Below, one piece after another: positions 10,700 to 32,393 of a stretch of 34,322 nucleotides of DNA. Position 1 is the first letter of the stretch. Each line of letters begins with the position of its first letter. This DNA comes from Acidobacteriota bacterium. GTDB taxonomy: Bacteria; Acidobacteriota; Thermoanaerobaculia; Thermoanaerobaculales; Thermoanaerobaculaceae. Under the pieces are notes generated by a model. It searched no databases. It was not told where the DNA came from and saw only the letters and a list, made by a program, of their open reading frames with translations. The stretch covers positions 366 to 34,687 of the forward strand of contig PMLC01000051.1 in assembly GCA_003158745.1 (NCBI GenBank). The letters run 5' to 3'. Position numbers and translations under genes: made by a program.

Positions 10700-10935
10700 G
10701 CACAGGAAGACAGTGGTCCGTGGTCCGAGGAGACAAGCAGAAGAGCGGCGGGGCTGAGGAGCCGAGGAGCCAGAGGCAGTTCGCAGGTTCAAAGGTCCAG
10801 AAGTTCGCACGTTCAGAAACGGCGAGAACGATAGGAAATGGGAAGAAGGCAGAAGGGAGAAAGTAGCGGAAAGACAAGACAAACCTTCCGTCGCCCGCCT
10901 TTCCTCTCCCGTCTTCCCTCTTCCCATATCCTCCT
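10700..10935. repeat. Short-word palindromic intergenic repeat, copy A
   Basis: The left part has GTGGTCC twice in tandem (from 10713), then octamer words of the GCNGAGGR type (10738-10770), then words like GTTCGCAG and GTTCAAAG up to 10819. A separate palindrome follows. Its purine-rich arm at about 10833-10862 (core ATGGGAAGAAGG) pairs with a pyrimidine-rich arm at 10899-10927 (core CCCTCTTCCCAT), across a loop of about 36 nt. The words match copies D (29763-29898) and E (31210-31458), so this is one dispersed family. It lies between plsC and ftsH. Confidence 0.75.
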
Positions 10936-10974
10936 GTTACCTCTCAAACGAACGCAGGGCCTTGCAGCACGGCG

Positions 10975-11103
10975 AGTAGCCGCGCTGCCGCCGTTGGGCC
11001 AGATGCAAGGAAGGCGAGCGGCGAGCAGCGCAGCGTAGCCGGAGGCTACGTGCGAGGCGCGAGCCTGACGCCGCAGATGGTCCGACGCCGGCGGCGCCGG
11101 AGG
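10975..11103. repeat. Dispersed palindromic repeat family 2, copy next to the ftsH 3' end
   Basis: Shares two long identical blocks with 31515-31664. The first is 32 nt (10987-11018, identical to 31521-31552). The second is 36 nt (11063-11098, identical to 31605-31640). Between them is a perfect 7-bp inverted repeat CGTAGCC-gga-GGCTACG (11034-11050). The outer blocks are loosely complementary (GGCCAGATGC near the start, GCAGATGGTCC near the end). The element stops 5 bp before the ftsH stop codon. Confidence 0.85.
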
Positions 11104-24863: not shown

Positions 24864-25010
24864 TTGAAAGCGGGCACGTTGGTGCTCGCTCTCCTGCCAG
24901 CGTCGGCCTCTGCTACGGTGGTGACCGTGACGAGCGTGCTCCCTCCCGAGCTCGCGCTGTGGCGGCGGCTCGCCGGCGTGCCCGGCCAGCCTCGAGGTGG
25001 CCAGCCGTGA
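24864..25010 (+). CDS. Candidate 48-residue small protein ahead of the cysteine desulfurase gene
   Basis: An open frame from TTG 24864 would encode a peptide starting MKAGTLVLALLPASASA, which looks like a signal peptide, and ending PGQPRGGQP. Its TGA overlaps the GTG of the next gene (GTGA). AGGAGG lies 13 nt before the TTG, which is too far for a convincing site. It could equally be noncoding 5' leader, so this is a weak call. Confidence 0.2.
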   Translation: MKAGTLVLALLPASASATVVTVTSVLPPELALWRRLAGVPGQPRGGQP

Positions 25011-26176
25011 AGATGCCGATCTACATGGACCACAACGCAACGACGCCGGTGGATCCCGGAGTCCTCGAAGCGATGCTCCCGTGTTTCTCCGAGCATTTCG
25101 GCAATGCCGCGTCGCGGACGAATCCATACGGGTGGGTCGCTTCGAAGCTCGTGGAGCAAGCTCGCTCGGCTCTCGCGACCGGCATCGGAGGGCACCCCGA
25201 GGAGATGGTCTTCACCTCGGGCGCGACCGAGTCGAACAACCTCGCAATCAAGGGCCTTGCCTTGGCGCTCAAAGGTCGCCGAGAGCACCTCGTGACCTGC
25301 GCCACGGAACACAAAGCGGTCCTCGACCCCTGTGCCGCGCTCACCAGGGAAGGGTATGCGACAACGGTTCTGCCGGTGGATGGCCGGGGCTGTCTCGACC
25401 TGGTGCGTCTGACCGACGCCCTCACGCCGGGGACGGCTCTCGTTTCGATCATGCTCGCCAACAACGAGACCGGAACCCTGCACCCGATCGCCAAGATCGC
25501 CGAGATCTGCCGGGAGCGCGGCGTCGTCTTGCACTGCGATGCGACCCAGGCCGTCGGCAAGGTGGCAGTCGACGTGAACGAACTGGGCGTCGACCTCATG
25601 TCGTTCTCCGCCCACAAGATCTACGGACCGAAGGGGGTCGGCGCGCTGTTCGTACGGAGGAGAAAGCCGCGGCTGCACCTCGTGCCGCTCCTCGACGGCG
25701 GCGGCCACGAGCAGGGGATGCGATCCGGCACGCTCAACGTGCCGGGGGCCGTGGGTTTCGCCCGTGCGCTGGAGATCGCTCTCGCCCGGATGCCGGCCGA
25801 GAGCGCACGCCTCGCCACCCTCCGGGATCGGCTCGAACATGCGGTCACGTCGCGCCTCGAGGCCGTTACAGTGAACGGTGATGCGGAGCACCGCCTCCCG
25901 AACACGGTGAATGTGTCGTTCGCCGGCGTGGACGGGGCGGCCCTCCTCGTCGGCCTCGAGGAAGTCGCGGTGGCCTCGGGGTCCGCTTGCACCTCGGCTG
26001 ACCCCAGGCCGTCGCACGTGCTGATGGCAATGGGCCGAAGCAAGGAGCTCGCCAACGCCAGCATTCGTTTCTCGCTAGGCCACGGGAACACGACCGAGGA
26101 GGTCGACGTCGTCGCCGATGCGGTCGTCCGCGAAGTCATGCGCCTGCGCACGAACTCCCCCCTCTGGCGGAAGTAG
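25007..26176 (+). CDS. Cysteine desulfurase (NifS/IscS family)
   Basis: Removes sulfur from cysteine as an enzyme-bound persulfide for Fe-S clusters and thio-modified cofactors. The 389-residue protein starts MPIYMDHNATTPVDP and shows TSGATESNN, the ATEHKAVL histidine, ANNETGTLHP, HCDATQAVGK, the PLP lysine K204 in SFSAHKIYGPKG, and the persulfide cysteine C328 in SGSACTS. The short SGSACTS loop is of the NifS/IscS class-I type. GTG 25007 has GAGGTGG 7 nt upstream and is preferred over ATG 25013. No iscU, nifU or mnmA is adjacent; mrp and a DUF59 gene elsewhere in the window handle Fe-S clusters. It is divergent from the mutase gene. Confidence 0.95.
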   Translation: MKMPIYMDHNATTPVDPGVLEAMLPCFSEHFGNAASRTNPYGWVASKLVEQARSALATGIGGHPEEMVFTSGATESNNLAIKGLALALKGRREHLVTCATEHKAVLDPCAALTREGYATTVLPVDGRGCLDLVRLTDALTPGTALVSIMLANNETGTLHPIAKIAEICRERGVVLHCDATQAVGKVAVDVNELGVDLMSFSAHKIYGPKGVGALFVRRRKPRLHLVPLLDGGGHEQGMRSGTLNVPGAVGFARALEIALARMPAESARLATLRDRLEHAVTSRLEAVTVNGDAEHRLPNTVNVSFAGVDGAALLVGLEEVAVASGSACTSADPRPSHVLMAMGRSKELANASIRFSLGHGNTTEEVDVVADAVVREVMRLRTNSPLWRK

Positions 26177-26189
26177 CAGGCCGAAAACG

Positions 26190-26330
26190 AGTTCAGAGTT
26201 GAGAGTTGAGAGTGAAGAGTTCAGAAGCAGTAGCAACCAGCGATCTTCGTTGGACGCATCGCCTTTCGGAGGTTGCCCCGCGATCCCTGCTGTTCAACTC
26301 TTAACTCTTCACTCCTAACTCCTCACTCCG
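26190..26330. repeat. Short-word palindromic intergenic repeat, copy C (GAGAGTT words)
   Basis: The left arm (26191-26230) is heptamers: CAGAGTT, GAGAGTT, GAGAGTG, AAGAGTT. The right arm (26288-26329) is their reverse complement class (CAACTCT, TAACTCT, TCACTCC, TAACTCC). The middle has two further stems: GCGAT/ATCGC (26240-26262) and GCAACC/GGTTGC (26233-26276). It fills the gap between the desulfurase stop and the mfd promoter region. The design matches copies A, D and E but with a different word. Confidence 0.8.
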
Positions 26331-26349
26331 CCCGCAGAACCGGTGCGGG

Positions 26350-26355
26350 TACAAT
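26350..26355 (+). promoter_or_regulatory. Predicted -10 box of mfd
   Basis: TACAAT in the string GGGTACAATC, identical to the box before plsC. It lies 26 nt upstream of ATG 26382 and argues against the in-frame GTG at 26343, which would lie upstream of the transcript start. No good -35 is visible. Confidence 0.35.
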
Positions 26356-26381
26356 CTCCTCCCGGCCTGCCATACCGGCCG

Positions 26382-29769: not shown

Positions 29770-29898
29770 TGGGTCGTGGATCGTGGTTCGATGAAGCGAG
29801 CAGAGGAGCGGAGGGGCTGAGGAGCAGAGGGGCAGAGACGAAGCGTCATCGTGCCTGTTTGATGCTCCTCTGCTCCCCTGTTCCTCTGCCCCTCTGCT
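29770..29898. repeat. Short-word palindromic intergenic repeat, copy D (GCAGAGGA octamers)
   Basis: The left arm (29799-29833) is octamers GCAGAGGA, GCGGAGGG, GCTGAGGA, GCAGAGGG. The right arm (29864-29898) is complementary over 35 nt with about 6 mismatches, giving a hairpin with a 30-nt loop. Before it, GTGGATC-GTGGTTC (from 29776) repeats the GTGGTCC word of copy A. It lies between mfd and the phosphofructokinase gene. No T run follows, so it is not a standard intrinsic terminator. Confidence 0.88.
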
Positions 29899-29993: not shown

Positions 29994-31202
29994 ATGAGCA
30001 ACGTGAACACCATCAAGGGAACGATTGCGATCCTGACCGGGGGCGGCGACGTCCCGGGACTCAACCCCGCGATTCGCGCGCTCACCGTGCGCGCACTGCG
30101 AGAGGGCTACCGCGTGTTGGGGATCCGGCGTGGTTGGGCCGGGATCGTGGAGCTCGAGCGCGACAAGGGCAAGCCCCACGAGGACCATGTGATCGAGCTG
30201 TCCGAAGAAGCCGTGAACAAGGTCGGGCGGACCGGCGGTACGTTCCTGCACACCTCGCGCACCAACCCGTCGAAGGTCACGCAGGCGCAGCTCCCGCCGC
30301 ACCTCAGGGACAAGTACCCGGGCGACATCGTGGACGTCACCCCCGACGTACTTGCCAACCTCGAGTGGCTCGGCGTGGACACCCTGATCCCGATCGGCGG
30401 CGACGACACGCTGTCGTATGGAGTGCGCCTCCACAAGGAGGGCGTGCGAGTCATCGCGATCCCAAAGACGATGGACAACGACGTGCCGGGCACCGACTAC
30501 TGCATCGGGTTCTCGACCTGCGTGACGCGCACGATCGAGATGACGCATGACCTGCGCACCTCCGCCGGGAGCCACGAGCGCTTTCTCGTGATCGAGGTGT
30601 TCGGCCGCTACGCCGGCTTCACCGCGCTCCTCCCCACCATGGCGGGCGCCGCCAACCGCTGCGTAATCCCCGAGCACGTCTTCGACATCGAGCGGCTGTG
30701 CGAGCTGCTGACCGAGGACCGCCACACCAACCCGTCGAAGTACAGCGTCGTCCTGGTCTCCGAGGGCGCCACGTTCAAGGGCATGGAGGAGATGGTGTTC
30801 GAGGACCACGAGACCGACGCGTTCGGCCACAAGAAGCTCGGGGGCATCGGCGACCGCATCTCCCGCGTGTTGCGCGACCTCTCGCCGAAGTTCAACAACG
30901 GTCGGCGCATCAACGTCATCAACCAGCGGCTCGGCTACCTCGTGCGCTGCGGCAACCCCGACGCCCTCGATTCAATCGTTCCGATGGCGTTCGGCAACCT
31001 GGCGATGGACCTCGTGCTCGACGGCGTCGCGGGACGTCTCGTCAACGTCCGCAACGGCCGCTACGACAACGTCCCGATCGACGTCGTCGCCAGCCGGAAG
31101 AAGACCGTGGACGTTCGCAAATTCTACAGCCCCGAGCGCCTGCGGCCGATCTACGAGCGCTTCGAGGCCAAGCCCCTGTTCATCATGACGAGCGACTACT
31201 GA
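29994..31202 (+). CDS. 6-phosphofructokinase, predicted PPi-dependent type
   Basis: Phosphorylates fructose-6-phosphate in glycolysis. The 402-residue protein starts with ILTGGGDVPGLN and keeps the family core. The phosphodonor motif is GGDDT (135-139), with D138 where ATP-dependent enzymes have glycine (GGDGS), and the active-site loop is PKTMDND (157-163), with K158 where ATP enzymes have glycine (PGTIDND). Both are the recognised marks of PPi-using enzymes, although some GGDDT proteins still use ATP. Further motifs are EVFGRYAGFTAL and NQRLGYLVRCG. ATG 29994 has AAGGAG 7 nt upstream. A TAGAAT at 29961-29966 may be the -10 box. Palindromic repeats lie on both sides. Confidence 0.93.
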   Translation: MSNVNTIKGTIAILTGGGDVPGLNPAIRALTVRALREGYRVLGIRRGWAGIVELERDKGKPHEDHVIELSEEAVNKVGRTGGTFLHTSRTNPSKVTQAQLPPHLRDKYPGDIVDVTPDVLANLEWLGVDTLIPIGGDDTLSYGVRLHKEGVRVIAIPKTMDNDVPGTDYCIGFSTCVTRTIEMTHDLRTSAGSHERFLVIEVFGRYAGFTALLPTMAGAANRCVIPEHVFDIERLCELLTEDRHTNPSKYSVVLVSEGATFKGMEEMVFEDHETDAFGHKKLGGIGDRISRVLRDLSPKFNNGRRINVINQRLGYLVRCGNPDALDSIVPMAFGNLAMDLVLDGVAGRLVNVRNGRYDNVPIDVVASRKKTVDVRKFYSPERLRPIYERFEAKPLFIMTSDY

Positions 31203-31209
31203 GAAGACA

Positions 31210-31458
31210 GGGGTCCGGGGTCCGAAAAGACGGGCAGAGGAGCGGAGGGGCTGAGGAGCAGAGGGGCCAAAGACCGTTCGAAGGTCCGCAAGTCCGAAGG
31301 TCCGAAGGTCCGAAGGTTCACCTAGGAAAGACCATTTCTCCGCTCCCGCCCCTATTCCTTGCATTCGTCTTGGCCTCTGAGCTTTCGAACCTTCGAACGT
31401 GTGAACCTGCGAACGGTCTTTGGCCCCTCTGCTCCCCTGCACCTCTGCCCCTCTGCCG
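31210..31458. repeat. Short-word palindromic intergenic repeat, copy E (largest, two word classes)
   Basis: The left arm (31232-31319) starts after GGGGTCC-GGGGTCC. It has GCNGAGGR octamers followed by GTCCGAAG octamers (GTTCGAAG, GTCCGCAA, then GTCCGAAG three times). The right arm (31382-31458) carries both classes in reverse complement and reverse order. The 26 bases 31255-31280 and 31410-31435 are perfectly complementary. The intervening 60 nt are pyrimidine-rich and unpaired. It lies between the convergent phosphofructokinase and upp genes. Confidence 0.92.
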
Positions 31459-31514
31459 TCGTTAGAGTGCGGGCGGCCGCGCCGAACGGGGGGCCTCGGC
31501 CAACGCCGGGTAGG

Positions 31515-31664
31515 CGCGCCGCCGCCGTTGGGCCAGATGCAAGGAAGGCGAGGCGGTCGGACCGGAGCGTAGCCGCAGGCTACGTGAGGATCCGGACCGC
31601 CGCAGCCTGACGCCGCAGATGGTCCGACGCCGGCGGCGCCATCGGCCGACGCCGGTGGCGCCCG
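31515..31664. repeat. Dispersed palindromic repeat family 2, copy next to the upp 3' end
   Basis: Shares the 32-nt block (31521-31552) and 36-nt block (31605-31640) with 10987-11018 and 11063-11098. The centre CGTAGCC-gca-GGCTACG (31568-31584) is a perfect 7-bp inverted repeat. Here the flanks GCGGTC (31553-31558) and GGACCGC (31594-31600) also pair, extending the stem. A partial extra CGACGCCGGTGGCGCC follows. It ends at the upp stop codon, as copy 1 ends at the ftsH stop. Confidence 0.9.
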
Positions 31665-32285
31665 TCAGGTGCCGTAGAGGCGGTCGCCGAAGTCGCCCAA
31701 CCCCGGGAGGATGTACTTCCTCGCATCGAGGCCGCTGTCGACCGCCGCAGTGTAGATCTCGACCTCCGGCACGGCCTTCTCGAGGTGGGCCACGCCCTCG
31801 GGCGCGGCGACGATCGAGACGAGGCGCACGCCGCGCGCGCCCATCCCCTGGAGCCCTTCGACCGCCATCGCGGCGGAACCACCGGTCGCCAGCATCGGGT
31901 CCAGCAGGAAAACCACCGCGTCACCGAGGTTGCCCGGCACTTTTTCGTAGTATCGGCGGGCGACCGCGGTGGCCTCGTCGCGTTCCAGCCCGAAGTAGCC
32001 CACGTGCGCCGACGGCACCAGATCGAGGAAGGCGCCCAGCATCCCGAGGCCTGCCCGTAGCACCGGCACCGCAACCACTCGTACCGTGACACGGCTTGCC
32101 TGAGCGACCTCTAGCGGGGTCTCGACCGTGCCGGCGACGGTCGGGATGTCTCGCGTCGCCTCCGAAACCAGCAGCAGCGAGATCCGGTGGGACAGGATTC
32201 GAAAGTCGTCGCATGGGGTGGTCCGGTCGCGCAAGCGGGTCAGAATGTCCTGAAGCAGCGGGTGCTTCACCACATGGAGGGTCAT
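31665..32285 (-). CDS. upp: Uracil phosphoribosyltransferase
   Basis: Salvages uracil to UMP with PRPP. The 206-residue protein has full family length. It starts [18 protein letters not shown], shows [11 protein letters not shown] and the PRPP loop [12 protein letters not shown] with intact residues, and ends with the uracil-site block [20 protein letters not shown] 32285 fits the conserved start; in-frame codons further upstream are not needed. No Shine-Dalgarno is visible, but TATCGT lies 8 nt before the ATG, so the mRNA may be nearly leaderless. It is a single gene, divergent from the copper ATPase and convergent with the phosphofructokinase. Confidence 0.97.
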
Positions 32286-32293
32286 GGTGCCCG

Positions 32294-32299
32294 ACGATA
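32294..32299 (-). promoter_or_regulatory. Possible -10 box of upp
   Basis: Minus-strand TATCGT lies 8 nt before ATG 32285, with no ribosome-binding site in between. No clear -35 is visible. It is listed because the geometry matches the boxes before folP, plsC and the RsbW-like gene. Confidence 0.3.
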
Positions 32300-32393
32300 C
32301 CACGCAGGAACAGGCAGTTGGTCGTTCCTACCGCGCCGCAACAATTCATCCCTGTTCGGTTATGCGGTAATGTATATGCGGCTGGGAGGCGGT

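Follow-up and report, generated by a model that had tools for sequence, protein, structure and literature searches.

The window, that is, the whole stretch of 34,322 nucleotides analysed here, contains two convergent genes, pfk and upp, which flank an intergenic region (31203-31664) holding a long inverted repeat (Table 1). Both genes had been named in the original prediction and were confirmed; upp is 73% identical to the upp of the Acidobacteria MAG RBG_13_68_16, the nearest named relative found.

Table 1. Features of the pfk-upp intergenic region and related elements elsewhere in the window.
Feature	Positions	Strand	Basis
pfk, 6-phosphofructokinase family; hairpin arm begins 23 nt past its stop codon	29994..31202	+	
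upp, uracil phosphoribosyltransferase, convergent to pfk	31665..32303	-	
Left (5') arm, G-rich words	31226..31313	+	Gapped inverted repeat, score 55
Right (3') arm, reverse complement words	31376..31463	+	Gapped inverted repeat
Left outer word block, octads GCNGAGGR	31233..31268	+	Repeat families D2, D3; word frequencies
Left inner word block, octads GTYCGAAG	31276..31317	+	Repeat family D1, spacing 8, 8, 8
Right-arm inner word block, GTYCGAAG on - strand	31384..31414	-	Repeats I3, I7
Right-arm outer word block, GCNGAGGR on - strand	31423..31457	-	Repeat family D2
Left half of 26-bp perfect stem, contains word junction CAAAGACCGTTCG	31255..31280	+	Exact complementarity
Right half of 26-bp perfect stem	31410..31435	+	Exact complementarity
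Loop of pfk-upp hairpin, 62 nt	31314..31375	.	67% pyrimidine measured over 31320-31380
Separate dispersed repeat, about 130 nt, 24 nt from upp stop	31507..31642		
Further copy of the 130-nt repeat, after ftsH	10973..11098		
Word palindrome, GCNGAGGR only, between mfd and pfk	29799..29898	.	
Word palindrome, heptads AGAGTNN, between aminotransferase class-V gene (25007-26176) and mfd	26189..26328	.	
Word palindrome, heptads of GGGAAGA kind, downstream of ftsH	10833..10932	.	

The inverted repeat had been described as a giant two-part word palindrome with a 26-bp perfect stem, and this description holds. The two halves of the stem match at 26/26 positions, and the score of 55 for the gapped inverted repeat compares with a mean of 14 and a maximum of 20 among 200 dinucleotide shuffles of the region. 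Taken without gaps, the arms (31233-31306 and 31384-31457) span 74 nt and are 85% complementary, and no longer inverted repeat exists in the window. The words follow one another in the order that had been reported: octads GCNGAGGR, which make up the outer part of each arm, octads GTYCGAAG, which make up the inner part, then a gap, then both reversed, with the octads in register at 8-nt spacing. The gap, which had been called pyrimidine-rich, is indeed so, the enrichment being mild. As RNA, the whole element is predicted to fold at -140 kcal/mol (z -7.7), and a search of Rfam 15 with it matched no family. The word junction of the 26-bp stem was also found in two other sampled regions (three in total). 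In addition, the junction GGCCAAAGACCGTTCG is common to both arms, and their match with each other (score 55) exceeds that with any other arm (37 and 40), mostly via this junction, which makes local copying of one arm from the other probable.

We then considered a sample made of 1.04 Mb of the window genome (3.7 Mb in 163 contigs, a metagenome-type assembly), 738 kb of a congener termed G001 and small pieces of 19 other class members, genes in the sampled stretches being predicted with a simple purpose-written hexamer-based caller. A scan for elements limited to perfect, ungapped arms proved too insensitive. The original prediction had held a functional repeat family to be unlikely should the arrangement occur only once in the genome, and it does not. 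Hairpins built from repeated words, hereafter word palindromes, are present in 84/544 intergenic regions of the 1.04 Mb, a 28% sample of the genome, and the pfk-upp element by itself has 78 matching places. This genome contains well over a hundred long repeated-word hairpins just past gene ends. Contigs C3, C23, C49, C67, C74, C132, C158 and C160 begin or end inside word arrays; the assembly is therefore probably interrupted by these repeats, whose true copy number should be higher.

Intergenic tandem arrays of the window genome have almost exclusively a period of 7 (n=123) or 8 nt (n=77), together 200/212, and dinucleotide shuffles yielded one array at period 8 and none at period 7. Their density reaches 1.78 per kb of intergenic sequence vs 0.022 per kb of coding sequence, a difference of about 80-fold. 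About six main words (GCNGAGGR, AGAGTNN, ACAGTNN, the GGGAAGA kind, GTYCGNAN and CGTGGNY) cover most arrays; within the words, constancy reaches 90-99% at most core positions, and two or three positions are free to vary. Arrays have three or more units each, and the arms measure 36-42 nt (median). Neighbouring arrays of the same word are inverted in 56 pairs vs direct in 8. Of the clear cases, 44 have the G-rich word in first position and 2 in second, which by symmetry is the same polarity on both strands. By automatic labels, 3/41 strings of composite palindromes are exactly mirrored. We thus rejected mirrored order as a rule, and only a minority of elements resemble the pfk-upp one in having two words in mirrored order. 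A single array is all that is present in 44/128 array-bearing regions of the window genome, and these cannot therefore be simple hairpins; reading them as Rho-binding sites, C-rich in sense, was rejected, as they are G-rich in sense in 37 cases vs 17. Long hexad arrays (GGTCAGG / CACGGT kinds) with several inverted repeats were also seen in and between predicted genes at loci L092-L095 (G020cat 45022-46892), and possibly correspond to a repeat-protein gene or a satellite.

If the arms were under strict selection for pairing in RNA, G·U mismatches should exceed A·C mismatches in gene sense. We did not observe any such excess at tandem sites of the two genomes pooled and read in gene sense (84 vs 90). 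Nor does the left arm of a single-word element fit the right arms of other elements with the same word any less well than its own (0.59 vs 0.60 and 0.53 vs 0.55, among others), so that pairing stems from the use of one word in both arms and not from base-by-base covariation. On these two grounds, arm covariation as a proof of RNA structure was rejected for single-word elements. The pfk-upp element is partly an exception, its own arms matching best, mostly via their shared junction. By comparison, the separate repeat of about 130 nt located in the same intergenic region, which has 42 matches in the genome, covaries strongly: among 13 aligned copies, double changes affect 17/40 pairs, and G·U outnumber A·C by 47 vs 6 on the strand antisense to the adjoining gene. 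Arm covariation can thus be detected in this genome, and the word palindromes are devoid of it. The sampled tandem copies of this 130-nt repeat all have one orientation (13/13) and most of them abut a stop codon, mostly 0-36 nt away; it starts with CGTGTAGCC, recalling the GTAG foot of REPs, and has no Rfam match.

One way to account for such arms is a mutational generator that, by template switching at hairpins, slippage or block copying between loci, keeps writing inverted heptad and octad arrays, which then survive mainly just past stop codons, where nothing gets broken. This explanation, which we hold to be unlikely, draws support from the nearly exclusive periods of 7 and 8 nt, from own-arm pairing that is no better than cross pairing and from the many single arrays. 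It is also favored by the sharing of multi-unit strings, since three-unit strings common to different regions exceed chance for the words F2 (46 vs 19.7) and F6 (23 vs 9.6). However, identical successive units are rarer than chance for these same two words (11 vs 21.6 for F2, 8 vs 17.1 for F6), the opposite of what fresh slippage would leave, and we rejected fresh slippage as their origin; a third word (F3 kind), unlike F2 and F6, has 9 vs 3.5. Rare identical neighbours together with shared strings indicate that perfect repeats seem to be lost and that some block copying takes place between loci. The strict G-rich-first polarity is not readily expected from a generator either.

Concerning their placement, word palindromes occupy 26% of the convergent, 15% of the tandem and 6% of the divergent regions of the window genome. 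Among regions of 120-180 nt of this genome and G001, the corresponding numbers are 14/33, 27/143 and 0/37. In tandem regions, the median distance is 10 nt from the stop codon to the arm and 49 nt from the arm to the next start, and in long tandem regions 18/28 lie at most 40 nt from the stop vs 3/28 at most 40 nt from the next start. Arms that hug the stop even where long regions leave free space argue against a mere generator. An mRNA 3'-end structure was one of the two readings first proposed for the pfk-upp element, and it fits with elements lying a median of 10 nt past stop codons and avoiding divergent regions. Other class members, pooled in a small sample, have a weak 3'-end bias or none, so the 3'-end claim rests on the genus of the window. 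It was also fair to remark that tandem words of this kind are not required of a terminator, and no U-tract lies past the 3' arm. More generally, the frequency of T is not raised after 3' arms, where neither U-tract nor T-run was found. U-tracts after stop codons are uncommon in this genome (27/408). Mutual exclusion with canonical terminators was rejected, array-bearing regions having no fewer U-tracts or canonical terminators.

The preference for convergent regions would also suit a DNA-level element placed at the ends of transcription units in the manner of BIMEs, that is, a cruciform or a protein-binding site (supercoil relief, gyrase or nucleoid protein) whose words are read by a protein family. 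It is also favored by the fixed core and free positions of each word and by G·U and A·C mismatches that do not differ, as expected if pairing occurs in DNA or is not selected. However, many unrelated words at the same place in one genome are hard to square with a sequence-reading protein, and we regard this explanation as improbable.

The second reading first proposed, a non-autonomous replicating repeat, is weakly borne out. Multi-unit strings are shared between regions above chance, so that some copying occurs, but the loops are mostly unrelated and REP marks are not specifically enriched at arm ends. In its mobile form, a MITE or REP moved by a resident transposase, it appears highly improbable to us. 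Y1 transposase genes exist in 9/9 genomes of the genus, and the junction CAAAGACCGTTCG is common to three sampled regions. Against this, 129 loops compared with one another gave few hits, mostly between other repeats; arm length, word and period all vary; the stem of known REPs measures 5-13 bp (PMC3733652); and the GTAG foot is not specifically enriched at arm ends, where GGAG and GAAG are commoner but both belong to the words. Of two Y1_Tnp genes inspected, one has a word palindrome nearby, a composite one at about 10878-11066 of locus L130, in a place resembling that gene's 3' end.

We then compared gene ends between relatives. Among 45 orthologous 3' flanks of the window genome and G001, an array or hairpin is present in both for 10, in one only for 8 and in neither for 27 (odds ratio 22, p 1e-4), a count in which convergent regions enter twice, ortholog numbers are small and the mean protein identity of the orthologues is 84%. 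When unique regions between two orthologues are counted, with one shared region that holds a different repeat scored as not a word palindrome, the numbers become about 4, 3 and 22 (p 0.0015). This persistence at orthologous gene ends speaks against a mutational generator. The latter is nevertheless the main rival: it explains the arm statistics equally well, and in the end it is opposed only by orthologous persistence and by arms that hug stop codons.

The words themselves are not kept. Both arms carry a different word in G001 at 26176-26381, at 31202-31664 and at one more site. To illustrate this, the first of these regions has AGAGTNN in the window genome and GGTCAAA in G001, and the pfk-upp region has GCNGAGGR and GTYCGAAG in the former and GGTCAAACGG words in the latter. 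In more distant relatives, arrays of TTAGGAA, TTTCGAA, GGGTCGT or AGCTCTC kinds are found 3' of pfk. In the genus g10 (loci L020, L023 and L027), perfect stems of 21 bp, each closed by a 3-nt loop, lie past pfk, and their sequence varies between species: the stems of G021 and G030 differ by one compensatory pair change, that of G025 is of unrelated sequence, and that of G021 is also devoid of a U-tract. Among 60 genomes searched, the three-unit GCNGAGGN pattern occurs 134 times in the window genome, 25 times in G001, never in three congeners and 43 times in a genome of another family. Word inventories thus turn over fast between genomes, congeners included, a wild change that favors a generator. 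Arm covariation in relatives, which the original prediction had put forward as a check, is therefore to be answered in two parts: hairpins do persist at orthologous sites, but their arms do not covary base by base. That the hairpin is kept at the same places in relatives, often in other words, suggests that its shape matters more than its sequence.

Altogether, we give about an even chance, judging from sequence comparison, to the pfk-upp feature being a 3'-end hairpin of pfk, and possibly of upp, that belongs to a genome-wide class devoid of U-tracts and held at the level of architecture. This reading builds on the observed anatomy and copy number, on a place just past stop codons and on persistence at orthologous ends despite word change in both arms. 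We propose that the arms would pair in the transcript into a long stem, which could nucleate in any register since each unit of either arm can pair with all units of the opposite one. Slipping and re-pairing in many registers, as first suggested for the pfk-upp element, would be consistent with the data. Such a stem might mark the 3' end and shield it from 3'-5' exonucleases once transcription has ended downstream, through Rho or otherwise, and the stem itself may slow RNA polymerase. Selection would see two arms of one word, inverted, and not single base pairs; the word would therefore be replaceable and the arms free to vary at their free positions. Nucleation in any register and cheap mutations at free positions would explain both the absent covariation and the easy replacement of words, and the scarcity of identical neighbouring units would reflect the loss of perfect repeats by slippage. 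According to the summary in PMC13289151, GC-rich 3' hairpins that are devoid of a U-tract and halt 3'-5' exonucleases after Rho termination are a known bacterial kind of 3' end. The genus does have Rho, and in nearly all of its genomes full-length Rho is accompanied by a second Rho-like gene (in the window genome at 62597-63688 of contig C19), the score of which against the Rho model, about 450 bits, falls short of the cut-off. On the other hand, several observations count against a 3'-end hairpin: the absence of any base-level sign of RNA pairing, U-tracts and canonical terminators that are not fewer, the many single arrays and the weak or absent bias in small samples of other families of the class. 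An extension of the 3'-end reading, possible though short of an even chance, would be a sequence-free inheritance: selection for 3'-end function would keep the site and the inverted word-array architecture, and from time to time both arms would be respelled with another word of a small dictionary common to the genome, leaving sister species with orthologous ends that are spelled differently.

A parallel can be drawn with several known systems. Like Rho-independent terminators, word palindromes are hairpins past a stop codon, but they have long mismatched tandem-word arms, long loops and no U-tract. Like REP and BIME sequences (PMC3733652), they are dispersed intergenic palindromes downstream of genes; unlike REPs, which have one conserved short palindrome and a GTAG or CGTC foot (PMC3733652), they have neither. 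The TAACTGA repeats of Beggiatoaceae and cyanobacteria (PMC4679880) are likewise intergenic tandem heptads present in hundreds, but these are direct, mostly just before start codons and hardly ever inverted (PMC4679880), whereas word palindromes are inverted and lie past stop codons. Tested or published features speak against REP, MITE and TAACTGA identities. In Neisseria and Pasteurellaceae, inverted pairs of one uptake word (DUS/USS) serve as terminators, with most in tail-to-tail and least in head-to-head regions (PMC1852404). The likeness lies in a short dispersed word in inverted pairs at gene ends and in a similar distribution among region types; paired uptake sequences differ in having one unit per arm, one word per genome and A/T tails, whereas we find tandem units, many words and no T tail.

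The closest known kind is that of the inverted GGGAATC heptads of Xanthomonas. These degenerate heptads (GGGAATC / GGGANTN) occur as 70-75 inverted pairs in each genome, for the most part on the coding strand and at most 50 nt past stop codons; divergent regions are avoided, the place is largely conserved between two species and the length varies; their function is unknown, a G-quadruplex having been proposed (PMC4692102). Like them, word palindromes are made of tandem units with fixed and free positions, inverted, with the G-rich strand first, near stop codons. Unlike them, they do not rely on one G4-capable word: several words are present per genome, octads as well as heptads, with two-word composites, and words are replaced at orthologous sites. 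GGGANTN is not among the main words, most of which, such as AGAGTNN, ACAGTNN and GTYCGNAN, lack GGG runs, so that a G-quadruplex cannot be the common factor. We found no multi-word inverted heptads of Acidobacteria in the open-licence literature searched.

So far, the heptads of Xanthomonas and Nostoc have been regarded as G-quadruplex sequences whose role is unknown. Here, words unable to form a quadruplex occupy the same place with the same polarity and inverted pairing, so what is common must be either the inverted word pair or the process that generates it. If the hairpins are functional, these high-GC bacteria that possess Rho would use 3' ends that are invisible to terminator finders based on U-tracts and, because the words turn over, to homology search. 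The pfk case readily provides orthologous sites that differ in spelling. The elements described here are thus a many-word variant of the Xanthomonas heptads.
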